A stretch of DNA of 39,516 nucleotides, from positions 1-39,516 of the forward strand of contig PHAL01000022.1 in the NCBI GenBank assembly GCA_002840355.1. Direction: 5' to 3'. The position numbers were made by a program, and so were the translations under genes. Under the pieces are notes generated by a model. That model was not told where the DNA came from, searched no databases, and saw only the letters and a program-made list of their open reading frames with translations. Numbering within the stretch: position 1 is the first letter of the stretch; each line of letters begins with the position of its first letter. The DNA is from Elusimicrobia bacterium HGW-Elusimicrobia-3 (lineage in GTDB: Bacteria > Elusimicrobiota > Elusimicrobia > Elusimicrobiales > UBA9959). Shown piece by piece: positions 1 through 39,516 of the stretch.

Positions 1-38
1 AACCGCCGCGCTGTGGACGAGCCTGCTGGCGCCCCGGC

Positions 39-1091
39 CTACCACATAAAGTAAACTTCCTCTTTCTCCTCGGCCCGCTTTTTCTTCGGCGGCGCCTTGC
101 TGCCGCCCTGGCGCGCGGGAACGGCCCGCTTTACCGCCCGCTGCTGCGGCAGGCCCCTGAACGGCCTGCGCCGGGTCTCGGCCGGCCGTCGCGCCCCGAA
201 GCTCAGCGCCACGGTAACGCGGTGGGCGTCGCCCAGTTCGCCGTACGGTGCGAAGGCGTAATCCACGCGCAGGTCGCGGTTGGTAAGCCCTATGCCCGCC
301 GTGAAACCGGTGCCGGCGTAGCGGCTGCGGCCGGTCTTGTAGCCGCCCCTGAAATAAAAGTATTCCTGCGGCCCGGCCGTCAGGCGGGCTTCCGCCCCCA
401 GCGCGGCGGCGAGGTCCGAGCCGCCGGCCTTTACCGCCTCGGCCGCCGCCAGGAAATTGCCCGGCAAGGACCTGGAGACGCCCGCGCGCAGCACGAGCGG
501 CAGCGGGAAGCTGCGCGAGCCCAGTTTAAGGGCCGAGCCGAAATTGGCGGCGGAGACGCCCGCGCGCCAGTAGCCGAAAGTCTTGAGCAGGCCCGCGTCC
601 CCGGCCCAGGCGCTCGCGCTGAGGCCGTCGGCGCGCTGGGTGAGGAATTTCAGCGCCGCGCCGCCGTAGAACTCCCGTCCGAGCGCGGCCGCGGCGCCGG
701 CCGACACCGCGCCTTCCAGCGCGCTGAAAGAGCCGGTCCTGGCCCCGGCGGCGTCGTACTTGTCCATGCCGCCCGAGAGCAGCAGGTTAGCGCCGCCGAA
801 CAGCGTCAGCCCGGGCCCGAGCGGGTGCACGTAGGCCGCGGACTCGTTGCGCATCTCCTGCAGCCATTCATTATGTCCCACCAGCGCCTCCTTGCGCTCG
901 GCGAGCGCCGGGCCGGCCGGGTTGTAGAACACGCTCAGCGCGTCGTCCCCGGCGGCGCAATAGGCGCCGCCCATGGCCGCGCCGCGCGCCCCCGCGTCCA
1001 GCTTGAGAAAAGGCAGCGCGTCGCCCCCCGCCCCGCCCAGTGCCGGGGCGGCGGAGAATATTGCAAGTATGAGCGCCGCCGCTAGTTTCAT
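39..1091 (-). CDS. PorV/PorQ-type outer-membrane beta-barrel protein
   Basis: 350 residues. A signal peptide (residues 1 to about 20) is followed by the stretch GARGAAMGGAY and then DDALSVFYNPAGPA, the usual N-terminal signature of the PorV/PorQ (UPF0164-like) outer-membrane barrel family. Alternating hydrophobic/aromatic strands run to about residue 300 and end in VTVALSFGA. After the barrel there is an unusual basic, Arg/Lys/Pro-rich tail of about 50 residues that ends in EEVYFMW. The ATG start lies 3 bp after the stop of the M6 protease gene, so it is the last gene of a three-gene operon. PorV proteins of Bacteroidetes shuttle type IX secretion substrates at the outer membrane. Whether this homologue does so is an inference from its protease neighbour. 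It could also be a FadL-like transport barrel. Confidence 0.75.
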   Translation of the reverse strand: MKLAAALILAIFSAAPALGGAGGDALPFLKLDAGARGAAMGGAYCAAGDDALSVFYNPAGPALAERKEALVGHNEWLQEMRNESAAYVHPLGPGLTLFGGANLLLSGGMDKYDAAGARTGSFSALEGAVSAGAAAALGREFYGGAALKFLTQRADGLSASAWAGDAGLLKTFGYWRAGVSAANFGSALKLGSRSFPLPLVLRAGVSRSLPGNFLAAAEAVKAGGSDLAAALGAEARLTAGPQEYFYFRGGYKTGRSRYAGTGFTAGIGLTNRDLRVDYAFAPYGELGDAHRVTVALSFGARRPAETRRRPFRGLPQQRAVKRAVPARQGGSKAPPKKKRAEEKEEVYFMW

Positions 1092-1094
1092 AAA

Positions 1095-4000
1095 TTACCA
1101 GACCAGGAAGAACTTGCCGCTGCCTTTGCCCCTGTTGTCGGTCTTGACCACGTAGATATACAGCCCGCTGGCCGCCCTGCCGCCGTTCTTGTCGCGGCCG
1201 TTCCAGGAAATCGAGTTCAGGGCGCTGACGCCGTCGGAGCGCGTCAGTTCGCGCACCAGTTCCCCGGCCGAGTTAAAGATATAAGCCCGGGTCCCGGTTG
1301 CGTCCACCGGCACGCCGTCTATGGTCAGCCCGGAGGCGGAGCGCAGGTCGCAGGGGTTCGGATACGCCCGCAGGTCGCCGATGCCCGGCCCCGCGTCGCC
1401 CGCGGCCCTGACGGAATAGACCGAGAAGTGAGAGACCTGGGCGGAGAGGGTATTGGCCCCGGGGTCTCGCGTCACGCCGGGCACCGGGGTCCAGCGGCCG
1501 GCGGCCGGGTCCAGGTAATAGATCCAGGCCTTGGACTCTTCGATCAGGTCCATGTCTATGCGCCCGTCGTCGTCGGCGTCGGGATAGGCCAGGGTGATAG
1601 TGACCGGCGCCGCGAAAGCGGTAACGGGCGTTCCGGCGGTATCGCGGGCGGAAAAGTCGCGCGCCAGGTCATAGCCGTAGATCTTGAAGGAATCGGGCGA
1701 AGCCGCGTCGGGCCCGGCCAGCGCCGCCGCCGGCGCCGTCGAGACCGACAGAAGTATCGTCCCCGTGTAGGCCCCGGCCGGCAGCGTTATGCCGGCGCCG
1801 TCGCTGTTGTACACCGAACCGCCCGAGGCCCCGGCCAGGGCGTAGTTTATCGTGAAAGTGCCGCCTGAGGTAATGGAAGTCCCGGTATTTCCCGCGGCGT
1901 CGGCGGCGGAGAACTGGAAGGAAGCCGTGCCGGTGGAGAGGTAAGACTCTATATAGCCGGAGGCTGTCCACGTCGAACCCGTCAGGAACGTCAGCGCCAG
2001 CGGCACCGCGCGGCCGTTGGAAGTGACGAAACGCAGCTGCGGGGCGGCGGGCAGCGGGTTGGCCTCGGTCACGACCAGCCGGGCGGTGAACAGGCCGGTC
2101 CGGCCCGGCAGCGCAGTGAGTACCTCCACCTTGGCGACCGGGCTGACCGTGTCAGTCTTCTGACCGTCGGAGGCGGTAGGCGTCGAATAGTATCCGCCGG
2201 TATTGTGCGCCCGCACGGAGAAATAATAGGTGGTGGCCTGCGCCAGGCCGAGGCCCGTGCGCGTCACGTAGGCATTCAGCCCGGTGCTGGTCCAGCCGGC
2301 GGTCTGTGTGCCGCCCGGCGTGGTGCCGATGGCGTACTCGTAGCGGTCTATATTCTCGGAGGGCGACTGCGCCCAGTAGGCCGAGAGCGTGGTCAGCGAG
2401 CGCACATAATCTATATCCCCCTCCGTGCCGTCGTGGACGTAGGCCACGTCGGCGGGCGACTGCGTGTCCACCGTCTGGCCGTTGGACCGGGTCTCAGCGG
2501 AATAGACGCCCACGCCGCTGATGGCCTTTACGCTGAAATAGTAGGTCTGCCCCGGCGTCAGCGTGAGGCCGGAGCGGGTAACGGAGAGGGCTAGGCCGTT
2601 GGAGGTCCAGCCCGCCACGTTGGTGCCGCCCGGCGCGGTGCCGATGGCGTAATAGTAGCCGGCCAGGCCGGTCTCGGGGTCCCCGGCCGAAGCGGGCCAG
2701 TTGGCCGAGAGCTGGGTCAGCGAGCCGGTGGTGGAGATATCGCTGCCGACGGTCAGGCCGTCGTAGACGGCGGCCACGGCCGCCGGCGGCGTGACGTCTG
2801 TGGTGCCCAGGTAGAAGGTCATTGTCGCCCCGGTGGCGGACACCGCGCTGATGGGCAGTTTCAGGTTCTGGCCCGCGTAGCTTTTGCTGTTGGGGGAAGT
2901 AGAATCCGAAAAGGAGGTGTTGTTGCCGGAGCGGTAGTAGTCGGCGTCATCGCCGGTGGTCCAGCTGTTGTACGGGCCCGTCAGGTGCTGCGTGCCGCTG
3001 GCCTCCTCCAGGTCCACCTTGTAACGGGCGGGGTTGTCGTTGCCGGCCATGGTCTCGTCGACATGCCAGACCAGCAGGCCGCGGGAGGAGCCGGGCAGGT
3101 AGGCGTCGAAGCCGTAGCCCTGCCGGTTCTCTATCAGGAAATATTCCGAGGCCGGGAAAGCGGAGTCGCGCAGCTGGTAGAGCGCGGCGGGGTCCGCGGC
3201 TATGCGGCCCAGCGACTTGGTGCCTATGGTAGTTAGCTGCGTGGGCACGGCCCAGCCCAGGGCCTTCTTGGGCCAGGCGCTCAGGTGGGCCGGCGAGGCG
3301 CCGTCCTCGTCCGCGCCGTTCCAGGAACCGCCGCTCATCAGGCAGAAGCTGCCGATACCGTTGCTCTCGTAGGTGGTGTCGTAAAGGTCGGGCAGGCCCA
3401 GGAAATGGCCGGTCTCGTGGCAGATGACGCCGATGCGCGAGATGCCCTGGGACGAGGGCGTGTCGCTCCAGCCGCGGATCTCCGCCTCCGTATGATAGGC
3501 CTCCATCCTTACGCCGTCGTAGGTGAGCGGGGTTATCAGTTCCCACTGGTGGGACCAGATGGCGTCGGTCGGGTTGTCGGTATACTCCTCGGCGAAACCG
3601 GAGTGGATGACGGTCAGGCCGTCCACCTCGCCGTCGCCGTTGCCGTCGGCCTGGCTGAAATCGAAGCCCGAAGCCTCCAGCGCGTTGATGGCGTCGCGCA
3701 CCATCTCGCGCGGCCGCACGTCGTAGCCGTCCACGTCGTTGGCGCCGTAATAAGCCTGGTTCTGCGGCAGCGTTACCCAGGCCGTCACCACGGACTGCAC
3801 CGTTAGTTCGCCGTAGGAAGTCTCCAGGAAATAGTCCTTCACCGAGCCGACCGCGCCGTCGAGATTGTAGCCGACCTGGTTGAAGAGATTATTGAAAGAG
3901 GTCTGGCTGTGCGTGGCGGCCTGGTCCGAGAACCTGGCCAGTATCACCAGGTTCTTCATCGTCCCGGCAAGTATGGGCGCGCGGGCCGGCTGGGCAGCGG

Positions 4001-4463
4001 AGGGCGAAACGGCGGAGACAGTCCCCCCTGGCGCCGCCGAAACCCTGAAAGGCGAGGACGAAGCGCGCGCGCTCCTTGCGGCGGCGTCGCGCCGGCGCCG
4101 CTCGGCGCCCGCTTTGGCGCGCCTGGCGTCCCGCAGGCCCTTCTGAAAGCCCGCTTTGCCCGGCTCTACCGTCCCTACGCGGTGGGCGCCCGGCCGCAGC
4201 GAACCGTCGGCGGCCTTCTCCGCGTAAAACCAGGTCCTGGCGGCAGGGTCCTTGATTACGGTATAGCCGTCCCGGTCCTCGTGCCAGTGATGATACTCGT
4301 CGCCCCGCAGCCGCACCGTAACCGTGGAGCCGTCGGCCTGAGCCACCGCGGCGGCGCGCGGGTTGGCCGGCACGGCGCGCGCCGGCCCGGCCAGGCAGGC
4401 CAGCAGCAATGCGGCAGCCAGGGCAGAGAGCGGAGCAGCGGTGAGGGCCTTAACGTGGGGCAT
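1095..4463 (-). CDS. Secreted M6-family metalloprotease with Fn3 repeats and FlgD-like C-terminal domain
   Basis: 1122 residues. Signal peptide about 1-30, then a propeptide-like region. The M6 (immune inhibitor A-like) catalytic domain spans about 165-560 and carries the zinc motif HETGH at 349-353, followed by FLGLPDLYD. A D-N-G-D-G-E-V-D loop before the active site looks like a calcium site. Two tandem fibronectin III-like repeats of about 95 residues follow (about 620-820; both contain YAIGT.PGGT and YYFSV). Then come an Ig-like region, a module with a second Asp-rich loop (DADDDGRID), and a C-terminal FlgD/type-IX-like sorting domain from about 1035. That domain begins AYPNPCD, contains SGLYIYVV and ends KFFLVW. 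The start is 1 bp downstream of the preceding gene's stop and 3 bp separate its stop from the barrel gene, so translation is probably coupled. Likely an extracellular or surface-attached protease; substrate unknown. Confidence 0.88.
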   Translation of the reverse strand: MPHVKALTAAPLSALAAALLLACLAGPARAVPANPRAAAVAQADGSTVTVRLRGDEYHHWHEDRDGYTVIKDPAARTWFYAEKAADGSLRPGAHRVGTVEPGKAGFQKGLRDARRAKAGAERRRRDAAARSARASSSPFRVSAAPGGTVSAVSPSAAQPARAPILAGTMKNLVILARFSDQAATHSQTSFNNLFNQVGYNLDGAVGSVKDYFLETSYGELTVQSVVTAWVTLPQNQAYYGANDVDGYDVRPREMVRDAINALEASGFDFSQADGNGDGEVDGLTVIHSGFAEEYTDNPTDAIWSHQWELITPLTYDGVRMEAYHTEAEIRGWSDTPSSQGISRIGVICHETGHFLGLPDLYDTTYESNGIGSFCLMSGGSWNGADEDGASPAHLSAWPKKALGWAVPTQLTTIGTKSLGRIAADPAALYQLRDSAFPASEYFLIENRQGYGFDAYLPGSSRGLLVWHVDETMAGNDNPARYKVDLEEASGTQHLTGPYNSWTTGDDADYYRSGNNTSFSDSTSPNSKSYAGQNLKLPISAVSATGATMTFYLGTTDVTPPAAVAAVYDGLTVGSDISTTGSLTQLSANWPASAGDPETGLAGYYYAIGTAPGGTNVAGWTSNGLALSVTRSGLTLTPGQTYYFSVKAISGVGVYSAETRSNGQTVDTQSPADVAYVHDGTEGDIDYVRSLTTLSAYWAQSPSENIDRYEYAIGTTPGGTQTAGWTSTGLNAYVTRTGLGLAQATTYYFSVRAHNTGGYYSTPTASDGQKTDTVSPVAKVEVLTALPGRTGLFTARLVVTEANPLPAAPQLRFVTSNGRAVPLALTFLTGSTWTASGYIESYLSTGTASFQFSAADAAGNTGTSITSGGTFTINYALAGASGGSVYNSDGAGITLPAGAYTGTILLSVSTAPAAALAGPDAASPDSFKIYGYDLARDFSARDTAGTPVTAFAAPVTITLAYPDADDDGRIDMDLIEESKAWIYYLDPAAGRWTPVPGVTRDPGANTLSAQVSHFSVYSVRAAGDAGPGIGDLRAYPNPCDLRSASGLTIDGVPVDATGTRAYIFNSAGELVRELTRSDGVSALNSISWNGRDKNGGRAASGLYIYVVKTDNRGKGSGKFFLVW

Positions 4464-4464
4464 A

Positions 4465-5451
4465 TCAGCGTGCGCGTCCTTTCTTCTTCAGGGCGCCTTT
4501 CGCGGCGCCAGGCACTATCTCTATGGGGGCGGACCATTCGCCGGCCCGGCGGCCGTCGGAACCCATGAAGCGCAGGTACTGGCCGGGGGCGACGGTGACC
4601 GGCAGGCCGGAGAGCCTGTAGGTGCAGGTATCGGTGAAAACGTCGGCCAGCGGCGCGTCGAAATCGGCGGTATTGGCCAGCTGCAGGCGGAAGTGCCTGT
4701 CGCCGGGGGCGGGCTGCCAGGTCACGGCTCCCCTGTTCAGCGGCGCCTTGGCCTGGGCCGGCGCGGCCGGCGAACCCGGCTTCGCGGCCCCGGCCCGGTT
4801 GGAGACCGCGAAATTGTAAACGGAGGAATAGGGCGTTTGCGAATACTCGCCCGTATTGAGCCGCACCACCGGCGCGACGCGCCAGTAGTAGATCCCGTCC
4901 TCCAGCAGCGAGGGATAGAGCAGGTACTGGTTGTCGGCTATGCCGGTCTCGAGATAGATCTCGGAGAAATCCTCACCGCGGCTGATCTGCAGGCGATAGG
5001 AGGCGGCTTTCATGACGTCGTTCCAGGCCAGGCGCAGGCCGCCGCGGCGGCCGGCCTTCTGCACCCGGCTGCTGACCACCAGCGGGGCCACGGGCGGGTC
5101 CTCCACGAAGCGTTTGTTCCAGGCGTTCACGGCGAACACGGCGTTCTCGCCGTAGCGGGCGAACGAGGCCCAGTCGTCCACCTTCTCCCGGTATACCTTG
5201 GCGCCGTATTTTTCCTCCAGTTCCCGGTCCAGGTCCTGCGGTATATGGCCCACGAAAACGCTGGGCGGGTGGGATTCCAGCAGCTTGGCGCCTTTCTTTT
5301 CCAGGTAATCCTGGAACTTGCGGTCGAAGGCCGTTTCGGAAGGCACTACCAGCAGCGCGTTGGCCGGCGCTTCGGCGGCCGGGGAGGGCGAGCTGAGAAA
5401 GCACAAGGCCGCCAGCGCGGCGGCGAACAGGAGCGGTATCCCTTTTTTCAT
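4465..5451 (-). CDS. Secreted protein with fibronectin type III-like domains
   Basis: 328 residues, first gene of the exported-protein operon. Signal peptide about 1-25 (KKG start, hydrophobic core, PSPAAEA). Residues about 30-120 form a domain I do not recognise (LLVVPSETAFDRKFQDYLEK then VGHIPQDLDRELEEKYG). Its short alpha/beta look recalls protease propeptide/inhibitor folds, but this is only an impression. Residues about 125-225 look like an Fn3 domain (LRLAWNDVMKAASYRLQIS ... YYWRVAPV), and a second such domain (TWQPAPGDRHFRLQLA) reaches about residue 315. The end is basic (KGALKKKGRAR). The ATG has an AGGTGA ribosome-binding site 5 bp upstream. Next to the M6 protease it could be an accessory, anchor or inhibitor of that enzyme; there is no direct evidence. 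Confidence 0.72.
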   Translation of the reverse strand: MKKGIPLLFAAALAALCFLSSPSPAAEAPANALLVVPSETAFDRKFQDYLEKKGAKLLESHPPSVFVGHIPQDLDRELEEKYGAKVYREKVDDWASFARYGENAVFAVNAWNKRFVEDPPVAPLVVSSRVQKAGRRGGLRLAWNDVMKAASYRLQISRGEDFSEIYLETGIADNQYLLYPSLLEDGIYYWRVAPVVRLNTGEYSQTPYSSVYNFAVSNRAGAAKPGSPAAPAQAKAPLNRGAVTWQPAPGDRHFRLQLANTADFDAPLADVFTDTCTYRLSGLPVTVAPGQYLRFMGSDGRRAGEWSAPIEIVPGAAKGALKKKGRAR

Positions 5452-5467
5452 GGTTTCACCTGCTTAT

Positions 5468-5473
5468 ATTATA
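5468..5473 (-). promoter_or_regulatory. Candidate -10 box of the exported-protein operon
   Basis: A perfect TATAAT on the minus strand lies about 17 bp before the first gene of the Fn3/M6/PorV operon, which has its own AGGTGA ribosome-binding site. I see no convincing -35 hexamer at 16-18 bp. The divergent promoter of the next gene begins about 35 bp away. Confidence 0.4.
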
Positions 5474-5506
5474 AACGCGCCGTATGACGGATTTGTTTCG
5501 CCGTTT

Positions 5507-5515
5507 TGGTAAAAT
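5507..5515 (+). promoter_or_regulatory. Extended -10 promoter for a predicted leaderless mRNA
   Basis: TGG followed by TAAAAT, then exactly six bases, then the ATG at 5522. There is no Shine-Dalgarno sequence. Transcription from this box should start at or next to the ATG. Same layout as at 16403, 19592 and 27250. Confidence 0.5.
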
Positions 5516-5521
5516 CTAGCT

Positions 5522-5854
5522 ATGGAAGAACGCCGTCTTGCGGTCAGCGAAGAGTGCGTGGAGCCGGAGCTGGTAAGCCCCGGCGGCCAGGGCCAGCGCA
5601 CCTCCGGCCCGCGGCCGGGGCCCGTCCCCCCGCCGCAACCGCCAGGCCTGCTGACGCGGCTGAAGGCCCTGCTAGCGGCCGCTCTGGCCCTGCTGGGTTT
5701 CGCCCTGCTGGTCTCCGGCGCGCTGCTGACCTCCACCGTCATCGGCGCCATCATCGGCATACCGCTCATCCTGCTGGGCGCGCTGGTCTTCTACCTGCTC
5801 TTCAAGTTCCTCTCCCTGGGCGCCGTCCCCCCCGTCACCTTCCGCCGTTTCTAA
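5522..5854 (+). CDS. Small membrane protein with two transmembrane helices
   Basis: 110 residues, no family recognised. The first 40 residues are hydrophilic and Pro/Gly-rich (GPRPGPVPPPQPPG). Two hydrophobic helices follow (about 45-67 and 70-95), separated by a short turn, and a short tail ends in TFRRF. Codon use (GC-rich third positions, many CTG and GCC) matches the neighbouring real genes, which supports it being coding. It stands alone between a divergent operon and a convergent one. No ribosome-binding site precedes the ATG. The start is supported instead by the -10 box six bases upstream. Confidence 0.65.
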   Translation: MEERRLAVSEECVEPELVSPGGQGQRTSGPRPGPVPPPQPPGLLTRLKALLAAALALLGFALLVSGALLTSTVIGAIIGIPLILLGALVFYLLFKFLSLGAVPPVTFRRF

Positions 5855-5923
5855 CCTTTAATTCCCCCAGCAAGACCGCCGACGAACACAATCAGCATGT
5901 CTCCTTTGGCATTCTGGCGGCCT

Positions 5924-6045
5924 ACCGTAAGGGCAGGATCGCAAAATCGGCGTCGCGCACACCGTGCGCGCGCCTGCCGCCCTCAGGCTCGGCGCTACGC
6001 AAGCCTCGCCTTCCGGGGGGCTTTTGCTAACCCTGCCCTTACGGT
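5924..6045 (-). repeat. Extragenic palindromic element, copy A1
   Basis: Perfect 14-bp inverted repeats, ACCGTAAGGGCAGG at 5924-5937 and its complement at 6032-6045, enclose a core shared with the copies at 6090 and 25044. On the minus strand the core reads GCTTGCGTAGCGCC, then about 30 nt, then a hairpin CGCGCAC-GGT-GTGCGCG (5954-5970). No coding potential is visible. It lies between two convergent genes, with copy A2 next to it in opposite orientation. Confidence 0.75.
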
Positions 6046-6089
6046 CTCCGCCATGATCCGCATACGCTTAACGTTCCCCGGCGGATTGA

Positions 6090-6207
6090 CCAGGGGCTGG
6101 GTTCGGAAGGCCCTCACGGAGGGAGGAGCTTGCGTAAGCGCGACGACTGAGTGAGGAGGGGCGCGCACGGTGTGCGCGACCCCGTGCCTGACGGGCCCAG
6201 CCCCTGG
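6090..6207 (+). repeat. Extragenic palindromic element, copy A2
   Basis: 12-bp inverted repeats, CCAGGGGCTGGG at 6090-6101 and its complement at 6196-6207, enclose GCTTGCGTAAGCGC (from 6128) and the hairpin CGCGCAC-GGT-GTGCGCG at 6162-6178. The core aligns with copy A1 on the other strand, while the outer arms are unrelated in sequence. The rest of the 5855-6297 gap shows no gene, only a short GGCTTAGGC direct repeat near 6252. Confidence 0.75.
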
Positions 6208-6297
6208 GCAAGCCGCCTCTCAGACGAACTTCAATTGCTCAATAACGGCTGCTTAGGCTTAGGCACTCACAACTTCGCTGCGCACGGCGACCGGCAC

Positions 6298-9200
6298 TTA
6301 CTTCACTTTAAAAGTGAAGCCGGAGGAGTGGGCGGCGAATTCGGGGGCGTACATGGACTGTATCACCGCCGCGCCGGCCTTGAACGTGCCCGGCGTGGTC
6401 GGGCGCAGCCGGTACTTGAGCACGTACTCGCCGTGCGGCAGCCACTCCACGAAGAAGTTCGTCAGCGAGTCGCGCGGCTCCTCGTAGCGGGCCAGCCGGT
6501 CCCACTGCCAGCCGCTGGTCAGCGTCTCCGCCTCGAAGCCGGCGGCCTTGGGGTCCTTGATGTGCACGTACTCGAACTGACCTCGCGTCCTTACGGTCAG
6601 GTGCACCTCCACCTGGTCGCCCACGGCCACGGAATCCCCGTCGGCCAGCGGGGTCAGCGTGTAGGCGTCCCCCTCCTTGGCGCGCAGGAAATACTTGCGC
6701 GAGACGTTCATCATCCCGGCCGGCGACTCTACGGCGGTCTTGTCGGTAGTGTAGATGCCGGTGAAGGCGGCGAAGGCCAGGCCGGGGCCGCGCTTGCGCA
6801 CCTCCGGGGCCAGGTCTTTTTTTCCGATCTCGGCGCCGTACTTGGACCAGCGCAGCGGCCGGGCGGCCCAGTCGAAGGGCTGCAGCTCTACTTTCTCCGT
6901 CGTGGCGCCCCATTTCAGCGAGAAGGTCTCGCCCTTGTCCAGCGCGCCCCGGGCCTTCATCACGTCGAGCAGCGAGTAGATGGCCGCCGCCGAAGCCCTG
7001 GTGGACTTCCATTCGTTGCCCTTGCGGTTGAAGAGCAGCCAGCGCGTCAGGCCCGGGATCTTCGGGTCCGCCGGCCGCAGCGCCAGCAGCGTCCGCAGCA
7101 GGAAGGCGTGTTTCTCCACGCTGTCGTTGTACCACAACCACGAGATCTTCTCCGGAGTCCAGTAGGTGCCGGAGATATCGTCGGTGCGGGCCCCGTCCAT
7201 GGCGCGGGCCAGGTAGCCGTCGGCCTTGGCCCGCTCGCCCAGCCGGTGGTAGACGTAGGCCGCGTAGGCCTTGCCGAAAGCGGTCATCGCGTTGGCGTGC
7301 TTGTCGGAGAAATCCGCCCAGGCCTTGGCGTACTCGCGCGCGGCGGCGCTCTCCGGCCAGGCGGCCGGGAACGAGGTAACGACGTAGGCCGCGTAGAGCA
7401 CCAGCGAGGTCTCGGCGGGATCGGCCTTCAGATGCGACGGGATCTCGCCCAGCGCGTAGGCCAGCGCCCGGCGGGCCATGTCCTCGGGTATCTGCACCCC
7501 GTAGCGCGAGGCCTCGGCCAGCCCCTCCAGCACATAGAGCGTCATGTGCAGGTTCGGCCTGCCGCCGGGGAACCAGGGGAAGGAGCCGTCCGCGCCCTGG
7601 TAGGACTTCAGCTTGCCCAGCGCGTCGTCCTTGCCGGCCGCCACCACCTTCGGGTCCAGCATGTCGGTGACCGGCCAGCCGGCCTGCCGCCCGCGGGACG
7701 CGGACTCCCACGGCGTCTCCATCAGGCTCATCAGGCGCACCGGGTTGTCCCTCTCCCATTCGGGGGTCAGGGTCTTGCGCTTGGGGACCTTCGCCACGGC
7801 GGCGCTGAGCGCCGGATACTTCTTATAGAAGCCGTTGGTGATGGCCAGCGGCACGTAGCGGTTGAGCAGCTGCTCCGTGCATTCGTAAGGATAATTCACG
7901 AGGAAAGGCAGGCTGTTGAGCACGGTCAGGATCAGCTGCGGCTGTATCTCCAGGTGCAGCGATTCAACCTCGCGCGTCGGGTCGGCCGCCTCCAGCTCCG
8001 GCAGCCGGAAGGTCTTGGCGGCGTTGCCGTCGAGGGCGGCCACGCCGGAGGCTATCAGCCGCTCGCGCGACGGCAGCACCGGCAGTTCGTTCTCCTGCGC
8101 GTCGGACAGCTGCCCGGCGCGGGCTATCACGCGCGCCTGGTAGGCCGCCGGAGCGCGCGGCGCCGTGATCTCCCAGTACACCGGCACGGTGCCCTTGGGT
8201 TTAACGGTGAAGGGCCTCGAGAGCTCACTCACGCCGAAGTCGCCGTGGGCCTCGGCCCCGTCGCGCGTCACCGAGAGGGAGACGGTGCCCGACAGCTCGC
8301 CGCCGGTGTCGTTGGTGACCAGGGCGGTCAGGCGCGACCGGTCCCCCTCGCGGAAGAAGCGGGGGATGTCGAGCCGCGCCATCAGGTCTTTTTTCGTGAC
8401 GGTCTCGGCGGCGAAAGAGCCCCGCCGCGCGTCGCGCGTGAGCAGGTACGAGGAGATCTTCCAGGAGGTCAGCCGCTCCGGAATACGGAACGAGAAAGCC
8501 GCCTCCCCGCGCAGCACCTTCAGCTGCGGGTTATAATAGGCCGTTTCGGAGAAATCCTTGCGCACCGCCACCGGGGCGGCCTGAGCTTCGGCTGGCGCCG
8601 CGGCCGGGGCCCGCGCGGCGGAGAGCTTGGCCTCAGGCAGGCCCATGCTCGGCCTCGTACCCTCGGTCAGGTCCGCGAAGTCGGCTTCAGCCAGGGCCCC
8701 GTCCGGGGCGGCTTCGAAGGCCAGCCCCTTGGAAAAAGCGGCCTTGCCGCCGTAGGAGGTGTCACGGTAGGACAGGCGCGTGGAGGCTATGCGCAGCGAA
8801 GCCAGGCGTTCCTCGGCCGTGTACTGCCGGAAGGCCTGCAGCATTTTCTGCATCAGGCCGGTACGTACCGGCAGGCTGACGGCCCGCGGGGTGAACAGCG
8901 AGCCCATGGCCTCGCCCGAAGAGTAGCGGCGCGGATAGAGCGAATCCGCCCAGAAAGCGGCGTCCCCGGCGTAGTATTCCAGCGAGCGGTCGAAGACCTT
9001 TACCAGCGCCTCGCCGGCCACCGGCCGGCCGGCCGCGTCCCTGGCCCTTACTTTCCATGAGGCCCGCTGGCCGGGGGCGAGGGCCTTGTCGTAATCCAAT
9101 TGCAGGCTGATATTCTTGTTCGCCGACGGCACGTCGGCGTCGGCCATGGCCGAATATACCTTGAAGCCGCCGGCCCCCAGCCAGCGCAGGCCGAAGCCGC

Positions 9201-12200
9201 CGCGATGCTCGGGCCCGACCTTCAGCGTATGGACAGAAAGTCCGCCGCCCGGCGCGACGCTCCGCGCCAGCACGAAATTGCCGGCCAGCACTTCGGTGAA
9301 CCTGGCTCCCTTCATGGCCGAAGCGCCCACCAGCACGCGGGCGGTCTCGCCGGGCTGGTAGGAGCCGCGCTCGAACAGCGCCACCGCCGGCAGGCGCAGC
9401 GCGGCGTTGCGGCGCGAGTCGGCCGCGGCTGAAACCAGGATCACCTGCGACTCGCTCTCGCCCCCCCAGGGGTCCCGGGCCTTCAGGCGCAGCCTGTAGA
9501 CGCCGGGCGCGAGGCTCTTGAACGTGATAACGGAGGGGCGGTCCTTGGCGAAGGATACCTTGCCCTTGCCCGCCTGCTCGCCGTCGGGCACTTTGGAGAA
9601 GGCCTGCTCCAGCGACGGGTTGCGCCCGAAATGCCCCCAGTCGCGGGCGCCGCCCGCGTCCTCGGGGGCGCCGTCGAGCCGGTACAGCGTGTACTGCGCC
9701 TCGCCGGCCTGCTGCTCGTCGTTAAGGTCCCTCAGCCGCGCGTCGATGGCCGCCGTGCCTTCGGGCGTGAAGAAGCCGGCCTGCGGCCTGACGTCGAAGA
9801 GCCAGGCCACGGAGCCGGCCCGGTAGTCCCGGGAATCGGTTATGGTGCGGCCGCCGGCGTCCAGCGCCTCGGCCCCCACATGGTAGGAGGAGGGATAGCC
9901 CGCGAAGGCCTCGCTCTCGGGCTCCGGCGTGAAAGTGAAACTGAACTTGCCGTCGTCGCCGGTCACGGTTTCGCCGGCGGCTACCGGGACTCCGGCGCCG
10001 CCTCCGTAGAACCAGCCCCAGTACCAGCAGTAGCGCGGCAGGTAACGCGAGCGGATCACGGTGTACTTCACCCTGGCGCCGGGCACCGGGGAGCCGAAGT
10101 AGTACTTCGCCTCGCCGGAGACCCTGGCCTTCTCGCCGTAGCGCAGCGGCTTGTCCGCGGCCTCCAGTTTCACCTCGAACTCGGGCCGCTTGTACTCCTC
10201 TACCCCGAACCGGGCCGTGCCGCTGAAATTATAGCCGTACTCCCGCACTCCCGCCGAGAGCGAATACTGGCCCAGCATGCGGCCCTCCGGCAGTTTGAAC
10301 GAGCCGGCCGCGCTGCCGAGGCCGGTGAAGGGCACGGTGGCGGTATAGGCCGTCTGCCAGTTGGCGTCGCGGGCCGTCAGGGTGACGGCGGCCTTGCCGT
10401 CGTAGACCCTGTAGCCGCCCGGCTGGCGCAGCAGGGCGGTCACCTTGAACTTCACCTCCTGTCCGGGCCGGTATACCGGCCTGTCGGTCTCGACGAAGAC
10501 GGATACCGGCTGCGGCACGTGCAGCCCGGCCGAAGCCTGCGAGTTCCAGTAGGCGTAAGCCCCGCCGTGCCGCAGCAGCGGGTCCAGCGAGAAATATTCG
10601 TTGGCCGGGTAGGTCACCGCAAATTCATGGCGCAGTATGGCCGCCCCGTCGGGGCCGGCGGTCAGCGGGACCCGTTCCCAGGCCCTGGCGCGGGACTTAT
10701 GCACGAAGGCCTCGGTCTGCGCGCCGGCCAGCGGCGCGCCGGTCAGCGCGTTCACGGCATAGAGCCGGAACACTTCGGCGGAGGCCGGCCGGGAGGGAGC
10801 GGCCGGGTCGTAGAGGAAGGCCTCGGGATCGGCCCCCAGCCCGGAGGTGCCGAGCAGGAAGATATCAGTAATGTTGACCGTGACCGCCCGCATCAGCGAG
10901 GCCCCCTCCTCGAAACCGGCGTCGCCGGAGGCCACCACCACGTAAAGCCCTTTCTTGAAAGGAGGGTTGGCGATCGCGACCGAGGCCTCCCGGTAAGGGG
11001 CCTCGTATTTTAGCGTCTGCCGCCATTCATGGGACGCCCGGCGGCCCAGGAATTCCTTCACCGTCTCCTGGCGCAGATATTTGACGTGGTCCCAGCCCTG
11101 CTGCGAGCGGCCGAGGGAGGCCTGCAGTTCCTCCGGCGTGGTTTTGTACGCCCTGAAGTGCAGCTCGGGCAGGTTGCGCGCGGACACTTTAAGTATGTCC
11201 TTGCCGGGAGGCGGCGCGAAGGAGGTGGACAGTTCCAGCCGCGGCAGCTCTATGCCGGCCCGCAGCCGCGCGCAATGCGAGGCGGGCCTGGAGCGCGGGG
11301 CCTCGTCCTCCGCCTTGCGGCAGAGTTCCACGGCGGAGGCGAACTCCCCCGCCTCGTTCTCGAAAGCGGCGGCGCGGTAGTAAGTCCAGCTCCGCCCCAG
11401 CCCCGTCTTAAAAGAGGCGGCCCAGTACTTGAGCGTCTTGAGCGCCCGCGGGCGCAGCGCGGCGCGGTCGTAGGCCGCCACGCGCCCGGCCTGCTCGAAC
11501 GGCAGCATCAGGCGCTGCAGGCGCCAGTATTCGCGCGCGAAACCTGCCGGGCCGCCGGCGGCGGCCTCGTAGAGCGCTGCGGCTTTGGCGGCGGCCGGCG
11601 CTCCGGCGGCGTAGTCCGCTTTGTAAGAGATCCCCGCGAAAGGTTCGGCCGCGGGCAGCCGGCCGGAGTCTTCCGACTCGCCGAGCAGCCAGCTGGTCCA
11701 GCGCAGCACCGCGAAATCCCATAAGGCAGGTGTATAAAGGAGCTCCGCGCCCTTTATGTCCACGAAGTAAGCCTCGTCGGCCAGCCCCGCCTTCGCCAGC
11801 GCCGCCCTCAGCGGCCAGAGCGAGTCGTAATCCCCCGCTATCAGACCGCGCCACTGCGCGGCGGTCAGCTTAGCAACGTCCTTCGTGCCCTTCTGCTCGT
11901 CGGCGGGCAGGGCGTAGCCGTACTGCCGCAGGTACTGGCGGCCGGTCTCGGCCCGCAGCAGCAGGAACCTGGCCCGCCACAGCGGGTCCGCCGGCAGCTT
12001 CATGTCCGCCAGGCGCTGGGCGGCCTCGGCGTAGCGCAGCAGCAGGGCCTCGCTCTCGGCGGCGCGGTACAGGGCCTTAAGGCCGGGTTCGCCCGGAGTT
12101 TTGGCGGCGGCGGCGTAGCCGTCCAGCGCGGCCTGGTATTCGCCCTTGGCGAAGGCCTGGTCGGCGGCGTCGTTGCTCCCGCCGTAGGCCAGGCAGGGCA

Positions 12201-33912: not shown

Positions 33913-33950
33913 ATAGCGTGAGCAACTACGACAACAAGCCCGGAGCCAAC

Positions 33951-34907
33951 ATGAAAAGACTAGCCGCCTTGATCGTCACCCTGCTTCTCGGAGCCTCCGC
34001 CGCCAGCGCCCAGCTGAACGTGCACTTCATAAACGTCGGCCAGGGCGACGCCACGTACATAGAACTGCCCAACGGCCACAATGTCCTGATAGACGGCGGC
34101 CCCTCCGGCCAGCCTGTGCTGAACTTCCTGAAGGCCAGGGGCGTCCACACGATAGACCACGTGGTGCTCACCCACCCCCACAGCGACCATTTCATGGGGC
34201 TGCGCACCGTCTTCCGCAACTTCCAGGTCAAGAATTTCTACGACACCCGGGTGGAGAACACCAAAGCGCAGGGCGACAACGAAGTGCGCGCGATGGCGGC
34301 CAATATGCCCGGCTGCAAGACCCACTATCCCGAAGCCGGCACCAACCTCAACTGGGACAGCCGCGTGACCGTGAAGGTTCTCAACACCTGCTCGGAAACA
34401 CTGATCACCAACAAAAGCGAAGAGATAAATAACTGCTCGATAGTCACCCGCTTCTACTACAACGGCCACGGCGTGCTGCTGACCGGCGACATCGAAGCGG
34501 TGACAGAGAACGCGATGACCAAGATCTTCAAGTCCGGCCTGGACTCCACCTACCTCAAGGTCTCGCACCACGGTTCCAAGTCCTCCTCCGCGCCCAAGTT
34601 CCTCGAGCGCGTGCAGCCCCGCGTGGCCGTCATCTCCGTGGGCAGGGACAACGATTACGGCCACCCGCACAAGGAGGCCATGGACCGCCTGATGGCCTCC
34701 GGCGCCCAGATCTACACCACCCTCGACGGCGACCAGTCGCTGACGATCCCCGCCCCCAGGCGCGGCGTGGAGATCATGATGAACGGCCAGCTCAACCTCC
34801 CGGTCTCCGTCACCCCGCAGCCCGAGTTCCGCGTCACCGACCATACGGTGGACCCGGCCGACTCGGCCGCGATGAGGCAGCTCATGCAGGAAGCCGCCGC
34901 CGAATAA
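33951..34907 (+). CDS. Exported ComEC-like metallo-beta-lactamase fold hydrolase
   Basis: 318 residues. Signal peptide about 1-20 (RLAALIVTLLLGASAASA), then VHFINVGQGDATYIELP, the hallmark of the ComEC/Rec2 C-terminal hydrolase. The metal motif is THPHSDH (His75, His77, Asp79, His80). Further ligand regions are GVLLTGDIE and LKVSHHGSKSSSAPKFLE, and the end of the fold is VISVGRDNDYGHPHKEAMDRLM. In ComEC this domain is proposed to degrade the non-transported DNA strand; here it stands alone and is exported, so a periplasmic or extracellular nuclease or phosphodiesterase is plausible. Start at 33951 chosen for GGAG 5 bp upstream and a good signal peptide. GTG at 33918 in the same frame is an alternative. 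Confidence 0.88.
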   Translation: MKRLAALIVTLLLGASAASAQLNVHFINVGQGDATYIELPNGHNVLIDGGPSGQPVLNFLKARGVHTIDHVVLTHPHSDHFMGLRTVFRNFQVKNFYDTRVENTKAQGDNEVRAMAANMPGCKTHYPEAGTNLNWDSRVTVKVLNTCSETLITNKSEEINNCSIVTRFYYNGHGVLLTGDIEAVTENAMTKIFKSGLDSTYLKVSHHGSKSSSAPKFLERVQPRVAVISVGRDNDYGHPHKEAMDRLMASGAQIYTTLDGDQSLTIPAPRRGVEIMMNGQLNLPVSVTPQPEFRVTDHTVDPADSAAMRQLMQEAAAE

Positions 34908-34969: not shown

Positions 34970-35710
34970 TTAAGGGAGCAGGGGAGAATCGGGCGGCAGG
35001 CCATAGACGGGGGCCAGGGCCGCCGGCTTGACCAGTTCGGAAGCGGGGCCGAAGGCATAGCCGCCGCCACGGCGCAGCAGCAGGGCCTTGTTGCAGCCCA
35101 GCCGCGCCAGCCCGGGCTCGTGCAGCACCGCCGCCACCGCCAGGCCCCTGCCCGCCAGCCGGGCCAGCAGCCCCATGATCTCCGCTTTATATTTCAGGTC
35201 CAGGTGGGAAGTAGGCTCGTCGAGCAGCAGCAGGCGCGCCTCCTGCGCCAGCGCCTGCGCTATGAAGGCCAGCTGCCGCTCGCCGGTGGAGAGCGTGTTG
35301 ATGGAGCGTTCCGCCAGGCCGGCGATGCCGGTCTCGCGCAGCGCCAGATCAGCCGCCTCCCCGTCGGCGGCCGAATAGCCGCGCCACAGGCCGGCCCGGG
35401 CCGTGCGGCCCAGCAGCACGGTATCCCTGACTGAAAAGTCGTAGGGCGTGGCGGTCTCGCTGGCCACGTAAGCCGCCAGCCGCGCCAGCCGCGCCGGCGG
35501 TATGGCGCCGGCCTCCTCCCCTCCCAGCCGCACCGAGCCGGCGGCCGCGCGCAGCCAGCCGGTCAGCAGCCGCAGCAGCGTGGACTTGCCGCAGCCGTTG
35601 GGCCCCAGCACGCACATGAAATCCCCGGGCCGCAGCTCGAAGGAAAGCCCGTCGATAAGCGGCGCCGCGCCGTAGGAGAAAGTAAGCCCCGAGACTTTCA
35701 GCGCCGGCAT
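34970..35710 (-). CDS. btuD: Cobalamin ABC transporter, ATP-binding protein
   Basis: 246 residues. ABC ATPase of the FecCD/BtuCD group. Walker A GPNGCGKSTLL (about 37-47), Q-loop region YVASETATPYDFSVRDTVLLGR, signature LSTGERQ (in place of LSGGE), Walker B LLLLDEPTSHLD, and H-loop LHEPG. It powers vitamin B12 uptake across the inner membrane. Start at 35710 (MPALKVSGLTFSYG): the ATG overlaps the btuC stop (ATGA) and has GGGAGGG upstream. A longer frame to 35746 is less likely. Last gene of btuFCD. The cobalamin assignment rests on the upstream riboswitch; sequence alone would also allow a siderophore or heme transporter. Confidence 0.9.
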   Translation of the reverse strand: MPALKVSGLTFSYGAAPLIDGLSFELRPGDFMCVLGPNGCGKSTLLRLLTGWLRAAAGSVRLGGEEAGAIPPARLARLAAYVASETATPYDFSVRDTVLLGRTARAGLWRGYSAADGEAADLALRETGIAGLAERSINTLSTGERQLAFIAQALAQEARLLLLDEPTSHLDLKYKAEIMGLLARLAGRGLAVAAVLHEPGLARLGCNKALLLRRGGGYAFGPASELVKPAALAPVYGLPPDSPLLP

Positions 35711-36639
35711 CAGGCCCTCCCCCTGGCGCTGCGCCAGAGCAGCCACATGAAGAACGGCGCTCCGGCCAGCGCCATCACCACTCCGGCGGGGATTTCCGAA
35801 GGTGAGAACAGCGTGCGCCCGGCTGCGTCGGCCGCGGTCAGCAGCGCGGCCCCGCCCAGCGCCGCCGCCGGCAGCAGGGTGCGCGCCGAGGGGCCGGTGA
35901 TCAGCCGCACTATATGCGGCGTCATCAACCCCACAAAACCTATGGTCCCCCCCAGCGCCACCGCGGCCGAAGTAGCCGCGCAGGCGTATACGAAGAACAG
36001 CGCGCGCTCCCGCTCGGGGCGCACGCCGAGGTGGTAGGCGCCCTCTGCGCCCAGCGCCATCGCGTCCAGCGCGCGCCAGCGCGCCATGGCCAGCGCGCCG
36101 CAGGCCGCGATGATCAGCGCCGAGGCCGCCAGCACGCCGGGCTCGGCGGAGTAGAGGCCGCCCAGCACGAAGTAGAAGAGGGAGAAGGAGCGCTCGCGCG
36201 CCGCCGTCAGCGCCAGCATCACCAGCGCGGACAGGAAGGCGCTCACGGCCACGCCGGCGAGCACCAGCGCCGCGTCCGACAGGCGCCCGGCCAGCCGCGC
36301 CAGCCAGTACGAGAGGAAGGTGGCGCCGAAAGCCCCGGCGAAGACGGCCAGGAAGAAAAGCGGGGAGGAGCGCTCCACGCCGGAGAGGAAGCAGAGCACC
36401 GCCGCGGCGGTAGCCCCGGCGGAAGTGCCCAGTATGTAGGGGTCAGCGAGCGGGTTCTTGAGCACGCCCTGGAACATGGCCCCGGCCAGCCCCAGCCCGG
36501 CGCCCACGGCCAGCGCCGCCAGCGTGCGCGGCAGGCGCAGGTTCCAGATAATGTCCGGGGCCAGGCCGGCCGGCCCGGCCGCCAGCGAGAACAGGCAGGC
36601 GGCGGCCAGCGCGGCCAGCAGCAGGCTAATTCTTCCCAT
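35710..36639 (-). CDS. btuC: Cobalamin ABC transporter, FecCD-type permease
   Basis: 309 residues, about nine to ten transmembrane helices. FecCD motifs: WNLRLPRTLAALAVGAGLGLAGAMFQGVLKNPLADPYILGTSAGA near the N-terminus, LGVRPERERAL in a cytoplasmic loop, GGTIGFVGLMTPHIVRLI, and the C-terminal EIPAGVVMALAGAPFFMWLL. It forms the membrane channel of the BtuFCD importer. It overlaps btuF by 14 bp and btuD by one base of the start/stop pair. The N-terminus is short, beginning almost at the first helix, which is normal for the shorter FecCD proteins. Confidence 0.92.
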   Translation of the reverse strand: MGRISLLLAALAAACLFSLAAGPAGLAPDIIWNLRLPRTLAALAVGAGLGLAGAMFQGVLKNPLADPYILGTSAGATAAAVLCFLSGVERSSPLFFLAVFAGAFGATFLSYWLARLAGRLSDAALVLAGVAVSAFLSALVMLALTAARERSFSLFYFVLGGLYSAEPGVLAASALIIAACGALAMARWRALDAMALGAEGAYHLGVRPERERALFFVYACAATSAAVALGGTIGFVGLMTPHIVRLITGPSARTLLPAAALGGAALLTAADAAGRTLFSPSEIPAGVVMALAGAPFFMWLLWRSARGRA

Positions 36640-37417
36640 GCAGCAGGCGCCTTAGCCTGGCGATCTCGCCGAACAGCCGCGGGCCGGGCCGGGTGAAGGC
36701 GTCGCGGTCCAGCGAGGTTATCACGCGGCCGTCCTCCACGGCGGCCAGCGTGCCGGCCATGGGCCTGGCCAGAAAATCCTGCTCCGTGACGCTGAACAGC
36801 AGCGCGGCCTCCGGGTCCAGCAGCAGCGTCTCCTCCCAGCTGGCCTGGAAGAAGCCCCGCTTCTCCCCGCCGAAGACATTGCGGCCGCCGGCCAGCCGCG
36901 CGGCGTCCGAAATGAAGGACAGCCCGCCGGTGGTCCAGCCGCCGGCGTCCACCTCGATATAAAGTTTTACCGGCTCTCCCGCGGGCGGTTTGGGCGCCAG
37001 GGCGGCGAGCCTGCGGGCCAGGGCCTCCCCTTCTTTTTTGCGGCCCAGCGCGGCCGCTATCAGCCGCACGGTGTTGAGGATATCGGCCACGCTCTTCTCT
37101 TCGGGCAGGGCCACAACCTTGACGCCCAGCCCGGCCAACTGCCTGCCCGTGGAGGCGCCGGCCCAGGCGCCGGTGAATACCACGTCGGGCTTGAGCGCGT
37201 AGACCTTCTCGATGTTGGGGCGCAGGTAGTCGCCGGTCTTCTCTATCGCGGCCGCCCCGGCCGGCCAGTTGCAGAAATTGGACACTCCCACCAGGTCGCC
37301 TCCGGCGCCCAGTTCGAAGATGATCTCGGTATAGGAAGGGAGCAGCGAAACGGCGCGCAGGGCGCGTGCCGGGGCGGCGCAGCAAAACAGCAGGACGGCG
37401 GCTAAGATCTTTACCAT
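36626..37417 (-). CDS. btuF: Cobalamin ABC transporter, substrate-binding protein
   Basis: 263 residues. Signal peptide about 1-20 (VKILAAVLLFCCAAPARA) without a good lipobox. The class III periplasmic binding fold starts RAVSLLPSYTEIIFELGAGGDLVGVSNFCNWP, with KPDVVFTGA, VVALPEEKSVADIL, and a long linker helix LGRKKEGEALARRLAAL. The C-lobe contains WTTGGLSFISDAARLAGGRNVF and WEETLLLDPEALL-type sequence. It captures the vitamin in the periplasm and delivers it to BtuCD. The start at 37417 directly follows the run of Us of the riboswitch hairpin. A frame 21 bp longer would begin inside that hairpin. No BtuB receptor is seen in the reliable part of the window. Confidence 0.9.
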   Translation of the reverse strand: MVKILAAVLLFCCAAPARALRAVSLLPSYTEIIFELGAGGDLVGVSNFCNWPAGAAAIEKTGDYLRPNIEKVYALKPDVVFTGAWAGASTGRQLAGLGVKVVALPEEKSVADILNTVRLIAAALGRKKEGEALARRLAALAPKPPAGEPVKLYIEVDAGGWTTGGLSFISDAARLAGGRNVFGGEKRGFFQASWEETLLLDPEAALLFSVTEQDFLARPMAGTLAAVEDGRVITSLDRDAFTRPGPRLFGEIARLRRLLHGKN

Positions 37418-37450
37418 AAAAAAAAGCCCTCGCTCCAAAGAGAAAAGGCT
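37418..37450 (-). terminator. Riboswitch expression platform: terminator abutting the btuF start
   Basis: In the transcript AGCCUUUUCUC-UUUG-GAGCGAGGGCU forms an 11-step hairpin (some G-U pairs and one mismatch), followed by eight Us that run straight into the btuF AUG. The GGAG/GAGGG available for ribosome binding is in the 3' arm. The hairpin could therefore both end transcription and hide the ribosome-binding site when cobalamin is bound. Confidence 0.65.
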
Positions 37451-37451
37451 C

Positions 37452-37578
37452 CCTCCCCTCGGATCCCCGCCGGGGCGGGGTTCGCAGTAGACCGGGCTTA
37501 GCCTTGCGGCAATACCGTTGCGGGGCAGCCGGGGATTCTCACCCCGTTCCTTCTGCTCTACGATACTATGATACTAAA
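37452..37578 (-). promoter_or_regulatory. Cobalamin riboswitch (AdoCbl-type)
   Basis: On the minus strand the conserved core reads GGGGTGAGAATCCCCGGCTG followed by CCCCGCAACGGT (37514-37545). The B12 box TAAGCCCGGTCTACTGCG lies at 37483-37500, and a paired 5' arm (GAGCAGAAGGAACGGGG) is upstream. The GC-rich hairpin CCCCGCCCCGGCGGGG near 37465-37480 follows. All the family's hallmark boxes are present in the right order and spacing. It precedes btuFCD by about 35 bp and should switch it off when B12 is abundant. Confidence 0.93.
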
Positions 37579-37595
37579 ATTTAGCCGGGCCGTAT

Positions 37596-39516
37596 TCAGG
37601 CCGCCGGCAGCGTGATCTCGGCGCTAAGGCCGCCGGGGTTCCTGTTGCGCAGCTTTATGACGCCGCTGTTGCGCATCAGCAGGTCGCGCGTGATCATCAG
37701 GCCCACGCCGGTGCCGTCGCTCTTGGTGGTCAGCGATTTCCTGAAGACGTTGCGCAGGGCTTCCTCGCTCATCCCGGGGCCGTTGTCGGAAATGGTCACG
37801 CGCGCGTCCTGGCCGACGCGCTCTATTCCAATGGCCACGAGTTTCTGGTCGTTGTTGCCGCTGACGGCCTCCACCGCGTTCTTGATGACGTTGAAGAAGG
37901 CCTGCTGCAGGTCCTGCCGGCAGGCGCTGATGGCGATATTATTTATTTCCGGCCCGTCCAGCTTGAAGCTGACGCCCTTGGACAGCGGCGAGAAGGAGGC
38001 GATGGCCACCAGGTCCTTCATCATGTCGGAGAGGTGTATGGTCTCGCAGCCCGGCCCGCCCTGCTTGCCGAAGCGCGTTATGCCCTGCAGCGACTCCACC
38101 ATCGCCGCGGCCGTCTCGCGCACCCCGCGCAGCACTTCCAGGTCCTCCGGGGCCTTGGTCTTGGCCATCTCCATCTCCAGGTAGCCGAAGATGCAGGAGA
38201 TGGGCCCGCGCATGTCGTGCGCTATGCGGTGCGCCAGCACGCCCAGCTGCGCGGTGGCGTTGAGCTCCGAGAACTTGCGCATCATCGCGTCCTTCAGCTC
38301 CCGCTCCCGCGACAGCTTCAGGTTCAGCTTCTCGAAGATCTGCCGGGACAGGCGCCGCATGACGAAAAGGTAGAGCACCGTGACGCCGGCTATCAGCAGC
38401 GTGGCGGGCAGGCTGGCGTAGATCTCGGCGGCCCAGGCATTGGCGTACGGCAGCAGCCCGGCGTACTGGCCCAGCACCACGCTCATGTCGAGCTGGGTGC
38501 GCAATTCCCGAAAGCGGTTCCAGGAGATCTCGCCCTGGGATGCACCACCGAGGAAAAAGCCGGGCACTCCCCAGGGAGTCCGGTCGGAGAACGTTGGCGT
38601 ATTGAAGCCCGGCTGCGCCTCGCGGGCGGCTACGGTATCCTGGGAACGGGCCAGCTCCTGGCCGCGGATGTCGAGCGGCCGACCCGTGAAAGCGCCGAAG
38701 GTGAAGTCCGGTGCCTCGACGTCGCCTCGCACAAACTCCCGCTCGAAATAGCCGAAGCGCAGATCACCGATGATCGGGCGTCGACTCGTCGGCGCCGGCA
38801 GCAGTTGCAGATGGCTGGTCAGCAGCAGCGCATCGGTGCGCTGTCCCGGCGCAAACTCCGGTTCGTACTTGTAGCGCTGATCATAGAGATAGCGCTGCTC
38901 GGTGGTGGCGAGCCCGAACAGCCGACCGGTCAAACGCTGACTGAGCGGGATGGTGACCTTGCCGCCCGCGGTCCAGGTCTCGCCGCTGTTGTGCGGCAGC
39001 GGCCGCGAGGTGGTGGCTCGCGGGTCGCGCGGATCCTCGGGTTTCGGGGCGTTGACGGGGTCGAAGTCGATTCTGGCCGAGAGATCGACGATCCCCACTG
39101 CGGTGATCCCGCGACCCAATGGTCCGTCGGCCTGGAAGACGAAGCGGTCGAGACCCAGATCGGCGACACCGGTCATCGGCCGGTCGGTCTCGTAGGCGAT
39201 GCGACCGCGCCAACTGTCGCCGCCATCCCGGGTCGTCACGCTCACCAGCCCGCTCACGGCCTGGCCGAAGCGGGCCGAGAAGCCGTTGGTCACCAACTGC
39301 GCCTCGGCTATGAGGTCCGGCGGGATGCGGAGCCCCGATCCCTCACTGCTCGCGGCGTCGAGAGCGTTCTTGACCCCGAAGCCGTCGAGCAGGAAACTCT
39401 GCTGCCCCGCACGACCGCCACGAAACGACTCTCCAACCACTCCCGCCTGCAGCGCGATCGCGTCCTCGAGTGATGAGACCGGCAGGCGACGAAGGTCCAC
39501 TGCCGTGATCCGCTGG
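37596..39516 (-). CDS. Chimeric partial ORF: TonB-receptor N-terminal part joined to histidine kinase C-terminal half
   Basis: The frame is open to the window edge (the GTG at 39500 is not a true start). Upstream part, about 38500-39516: a TonB-dependent receptor plug and first barrel segment (LPVSSLEDAIALQAGVV, FRGGRAGQQSFLLDGFGVKN, GFSARFGQAVSGLVSVTTRDGGD). Downstream part, 37596 to about 38470: one transmembrane helix (LPATLLIAGVTVLYLFVM), a coiled linker, a HisKA-like dimerisation helix with the phospho-acceptor His in LAHRIAHDMRGPISCIFGYLE (about 38218), and HATPase motifs FNVIKNAVEAV (N box), ISDNGPGM (G1) and TKSDGTGVGLMI (G2). The receptor part uses few ATA codons and more CGA/CGT, unlike the kinase part. 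Most likely an assembly join; the kinase alone would be a sensor of unknown signal. Confidence 0.7.
   Translation of the reverse strand, partial: QRITAVDLRRLPVSSLEDAIALQAGVVGESFRGGRAGQQSFLLDGFGVKNALDAASSEGSGLRIPPDLIAEAQLVTNGFSARFGQAVSGLVSVTTRDGGDSWRGRIAYETDRPMTGVADLGLDRFVFQADGPLGRGITAVGIVDLSARIDFDPVNAPKPEDPRDPRATTSRPLPHNSGETWTAGGKVTIPLSQRLTGRLFGLATTEQRYLYDQRYKYEPEFAPGQRTDALLLTSHLQLLPAPTSRRPIIGDLRFGYFEREFVRGDVEAPDFTFGAFTGRPLDIRGQELARSQDTVAAREAQPGFNTPTFSDRTPWGVPGFFLGGASQGEISWNRFRELRTQLDMSVVLGQYAGLLPYANAWAAEIYASLPATLLIAGVTVLYLFVMRRLSRQIFEKLNLKLSRERELKDAMMRKFSELNATAQLGVLAHRIAHDMRGPISCIFGYLEMEMAKTKAPEDLEVLRGVRETAAAMVESLQGITRFGKQGGPGCETIHLSDMMKDLVAIASFSPLSKGVSFKLDGPEINNIAISACRQDLQQAFFNVIKNAVEAVSGNNDQKLVAIGIERVGQDARVTISDNGPGMSEEALRNVFRKSLTTKSDGTGVGLMITRDLLMRNSGVIKLRNRNPGGLSAEITLPAA

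Follow-up and report, generated by a model that had tools for sequence, protein, structure and literature searches.

A TonB receptor–histidine kinase reading frame at a contig end as a most probable metagenome-assembly chimera

In inter-genome misassembly of metagenome-assembled genomes (MAGs), two sources are joined at a short common word near a contig end, and composition and nearest relatives change at the join; general misassembly tools in the literature include metaMIC (PMC9661791) and ResMiCo (PMC10174551). The locus described here has these same features and does not differ from such cases in kind, although it is unusually well documented, since the two broken contigs belong to one bin and a close relative extends across both. 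Each part of the reading frame concerned also has a complete counterpart elsewhere. The kinase part is 92% identical to a 423-aa membrane histidine kinase of a same-genus genome (G014), from which it differs in being without the N-terminal part, which lies on another contig (C35) of the same genome as the window. The receptor part shows 82% amino acid identity, across all 338 residues of the query, to a TonB-dependent receptor of Gemmatimonadetes bacterium S09.Bin022, whose gene is full length (926 aa) and is without a kinase part. The receptor-kinase frame is almost certainly an assembly artefact, a metagenome chimera, and no real feature of the genome.

The reading frame and its composition

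The window, i.e. the whole stretch of DNA analysed, is the complete contig C84 of the source genome (G000:C84, 39516 bases). Its minus-strand open reading frame at 37596-39515 (639 aa) is cut off by the contig end, where it is left open, and encodes, as a sequence-only reading had described, a receptor half followed in frame by a kinase half. That reading had placed the joint at about 38440-38540, and the position found, about 38466-38488 and 1.03 kb from the end of C84, falls within this range, although the receptor part, which had been taken as the first third, actually makes up about half of the frame (about 344 of 639 aa). The change of codon use claimed at the joint was confirmed by counting, since ATA serves for 1 of 13 isoleucines in the receptor part and for 7 of 19 in the kinase part, while CGA and CGT together account for 8 of 35 and 0 of 20 arginines, respectively. 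In addition, GC3 is 0.805 on the receptor side vs 0.931 on the kinase side.

At the domain level (Pfam), residues 3-87 match the TonB Plug at 21.9 bits, slightly below the curated cut-off of 23.9, and the receptor half holds this sub-cut-off plug with only the start of the following part, rather than a plug with a complete beta-barrel. The kinase half carries the phosphoacceptor region and HATPase_c that define a sensor histidine kinase, with HATPase_c at residues 534-638 (61.5 bits) and a weak HisKA match at residues 427-470 (16.1 bits vs a cut-off of 26.9). The features are collected in Table 1. The source bin amounts to 2.88 Mb in 95 contigs, with 97.26% completeness and 2.08% contamination, good figures which say little about a 1-kb contig tip.

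Table 1. Parts of the reading frame at the end of the window
Feature	Position	Strand	Basis
Membrane histidine kinase, C-terminal part (last TM segment, HisKA-like, HATPase_c)	37596..38465	-	92% aa / 92% nt to the intact G014 kinase; Pfam HATPase_c
17-base word GCGTGGTGCTGGGCCAG, probable site of false join; also C35:13570-13586	38466..38482	-	Exact search; alignments of both sides
Probable foreign TonB-dependent receptor fragment (plug + barrel start), Gemmatimonadota-like	38483..39516	-	82% aa, 76% nt to 926-aa receptor; 0/60 relatives match

Two halves of different origin

Among 61 genomes (the source genome and 60 relatives), the best relative of the kinase half is found on a same-genus contig (G014:C46), with 92% identity over residues 6-301 of the 301-aa query. 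The intact G014 kinase (L033:10165-11436) is a membrane histidine kinase whose hydrophobic stretches span about 14-49, 76-116 and 147-173. Its gene is accompanied by those of a 219-aa response regulator of LuxR type and a PAS histidine kinase of 370 aa, which places the real gene in an ordinary two-component cluster. In all 20 kinase-family loci compared, a set which includes the query's own source (L013) and a paralogue (L006), the kinase core is directly preceded by the N-terminus (131 aa) of the G014 kinase. In short, the real gene encodes a sensor histidine kinase of the ordinary multi-TM kind, about 423 aa long, and the kinase half of the window is genuine DNA of the source genome, with its N-terminal part on C35.

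A paralogous membrane histidine kinase was also seen about 8 kb upstream of the kinase locus (G000:C35:5237-6118 and G014:C46:37217-38098, 62-63% identical), and two paralogous kinase copies lie near each other in several same-genus genomes. A mix-up of paralogues within the genome was considered as the origin of the join and rejected, the C35 copy being 62% identical and away from the join.

The receptor half has a different distribution. It matches in none of the 60 relatives, and no second receptor copy was found in the source genome. A scan of 84,980 species genomes by exact peptide patterns, which detects close relatives only, yielded a single relative, on contig JAABRY010000018.1 of the S09.Bin022 genome mentioned above, where the identity extends over 338/338 residues at the amino acid level and is 76% at the nucleotide level. 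The receptor gene of that contig is complete (L035:4605-7385), with CarboxypepD_reg and Plug domains, the latter scoring 23.5 bits, just below the cut-off of 23.9. Among 41 genomes around and including this Gemmatimonadetes MAG, 34 match the receptor at E <= 0.001 and 7 have no match, while 20 of the 41 match at E <= 6e-95, with open frames of 754-1339 aa. In the Gemmatimonadetes genome with the receptor, residues 1-354 of the chimera and the kinase residues match at separate places. A separate search of each half, proposed together with the first description, has therefore led to best relatives in different lineages.

The same description had named, as an alternative, a new fusion in which the receptor N-terminus would sense a ligand and the kinase would report it. 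The open frame across the join is the one argument in its favour, and all the evidence for an artefact counts against it. Furthermore, the chimera has a single hydrophobic segment, at about residues 363-389, and those near the N-terminus of the intact kinase are missing from it; to our knowledge, no topology is known in which an outer-membrane barrel is cut after its first strands and followed by an inner-membrane segment. Nor was the fusion met with in an independent genome, as the receptor half is present in 0 of the 60 relatives and near 0 of the 20 kinase-family loci, within flanks of up to about 1.5 kb. The alternative is unsupported, and we regard it as extremely improbable that the frame encodes a functional fusion. 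Hardly any credence can be given, likewise, to a strain-specific real rearrangement in which a Gemmatimonadota TonB plug with its first strands would have been joined in frame with the core of the sensor kinase and its last TM segment, and in which the resulting hybrid would be expressed.

One word at both contig breaks

The true arrangement of the kinase locus is given by the G014 contig (L033, i.e. G014:C46:35000-52000). Positions 10544-17001 of L033 align to 38488-32024 of the window, with 89.4% identity over 6482 bases, and positions 8-10566 align to 3031-13586 of C35, with 90.0% identity over 10580 bases, which means that one relative contig carries C35 and C84 back to back. The missing N-terminus of the kinase was found at the end of C35, in the same genome as the window. 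An exact search of the 2.88 Mb genome located GCGTGGTGCTGGGCCAG at exactly two places, one on each of these contigs (Table 1), and both contigs turn to foreign DNA at this identical 17-base word. Over the 60 bases to the left of the word, C35 follows G014 (identity 0.88) and the window does not (0.33); over the 60 bases to the right, the window follows G014 (0.93) and C35 does not (0.30). As is characteristic of a chimeric contig, each side is continuous past the join elsewhere (in the G014 kinase contig and in the 926-aa receptor of L035), and the join lies at a short identical word shared with the true continuation. The preference of the sequence-only reading for a false assembly join has been upheld, given that the true locus lies, with no receptor in it, on a single contig of the same-genus genome and that the upstream half of the kinase stands at the end of C35. 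Acquisition of an entire receptor gene by horizontal transfer was rejected, since C84 carries no more than a fragment of it, and the joint of this fragment coincides exactly with the word at which C35 is also broken.

Past the word, C35 continues in frame for 268 bases, up to the contig end, as an ISAs1-family transposase. This tail scores 111.1 bits against NCBIfam NF033564 (cut-off 70), and its tblastn matches fall in 687 plasmid records, several of them annotated as ISAs1 family transposase; the transposase DNA was found in 0 of the 60 relatives. The NF033564 match begins at position 109 of the 314 of the model and, in the 100-aa query, at residue 6, whose glycine codon immediately precedes VVLGQ. 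The similarity of the receptor to L035 also runs through the word, with GACATGAGCCTGACGCTCGGTCAG in L035 vs GACATGAGCGTGGTGCTGGGCCAG in the window, and each of the two foreign genes resembles its own family across the common word as well. A simple IS insertion was rejected, since the transposase part begins mid-gene.

The presence of the transposase fragment at the other broken end is, nevertheless, the point which favours a real rearrangement, as IS elements cause rearrangements: a strain would have taken the receptor fragment and the transposase piece into the kinase gene by recombination or transposition, splitting the gene. Against this stands the start of the transposase at model position 109, from which it follows that the join is not at an IS end. 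Moreover, both breaks fall on the same 17-base word with different foreign DNA on each side, each contig ends shortly past the join, and neither foreign piece occurs in the 60 relatives. Such an event would require that two different pieces of foreign DNA, of which one begins in the middle of a transposase, had been joined at one and the same 17-base word, and it is considered very unlikely.

We infer instead that the cause was an error of path in the assembly graph rather than a physical rearrangement. Three unrelated genes of the community, i.e. the membrane histidine kinase of the organism itself, the TonB receptor of a Gemmatimonadota-like organism and the ISAs1-family transposase, would have a common word around GCGTGGTGCTGGGCCAG, coding for VVLGQ or similar, and the assembler would have departed from the kinase path at the word in both directions. 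In C84, the real C-terminus of the kinase would have been led into the receptor, the contig ending 1.03 kb past the word, and in C35 the real N-terminus would have been led into the transposase, with the end 268 bases past the word. All three genes read the shared word in one frame, which would account for the preserved reading frame, and the false frame would be open because each of them has a similar same-frame stretch there. Two contigs broken at one word, with different foreign continuations and early ends, are what is expected from a wrong path in a short-k assembly graph, and this is the simplest account. The smallest k usually employed by assemblers is about 20-21, longer than the 17-base word; the real shared stretch may exceed 17 bases, since this length was read from the contigs and not from the true continuation of the receptor or the true start of the transposase.

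Annotation of the frame as a new receptor-kinase architecture is not warranted. C84 and C35, two broken contigs of one bin, offer a clean example of what is probably a three-way switch of path at a single short word. They also carry a warning: where every gene involved translates the shared word into the same peptide, preservation of the frame across a join is no evidence that the fusion is real.

Other elements near the join and the reading frame

What appears to be a second false join of the same event was seen on C35 (L034, G000:C35, 13587-13854), where the N-terminus of the kinase is continued by the ISAs1-family transposase fragment. In the window, an Rfam scan at the gathering threshold gave 0 matches, and a cobalamin riboswitch-like element was observed at 37469-37585 (minus strand), scoring 31.2 bits against RF00174, just below the gathering score of 31.5 (E 2.6e-6 in a 401-base search). 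The kinase lies on one side of it and a periplasmic-binding / FecCD / ABC ATPase set (34970-37438) on the other, an arrangement which fits a B12 uptake operon. Further along, a 329-aa protein of metallo-beta-lactamase fold (PF00753) is encoded at 33918-34907 on the plus strand; its N-terminal hydrophobic stretch looks signal-sequence-like by eye, and the protein presumably resembles the hydrolase domains of ComEC type.
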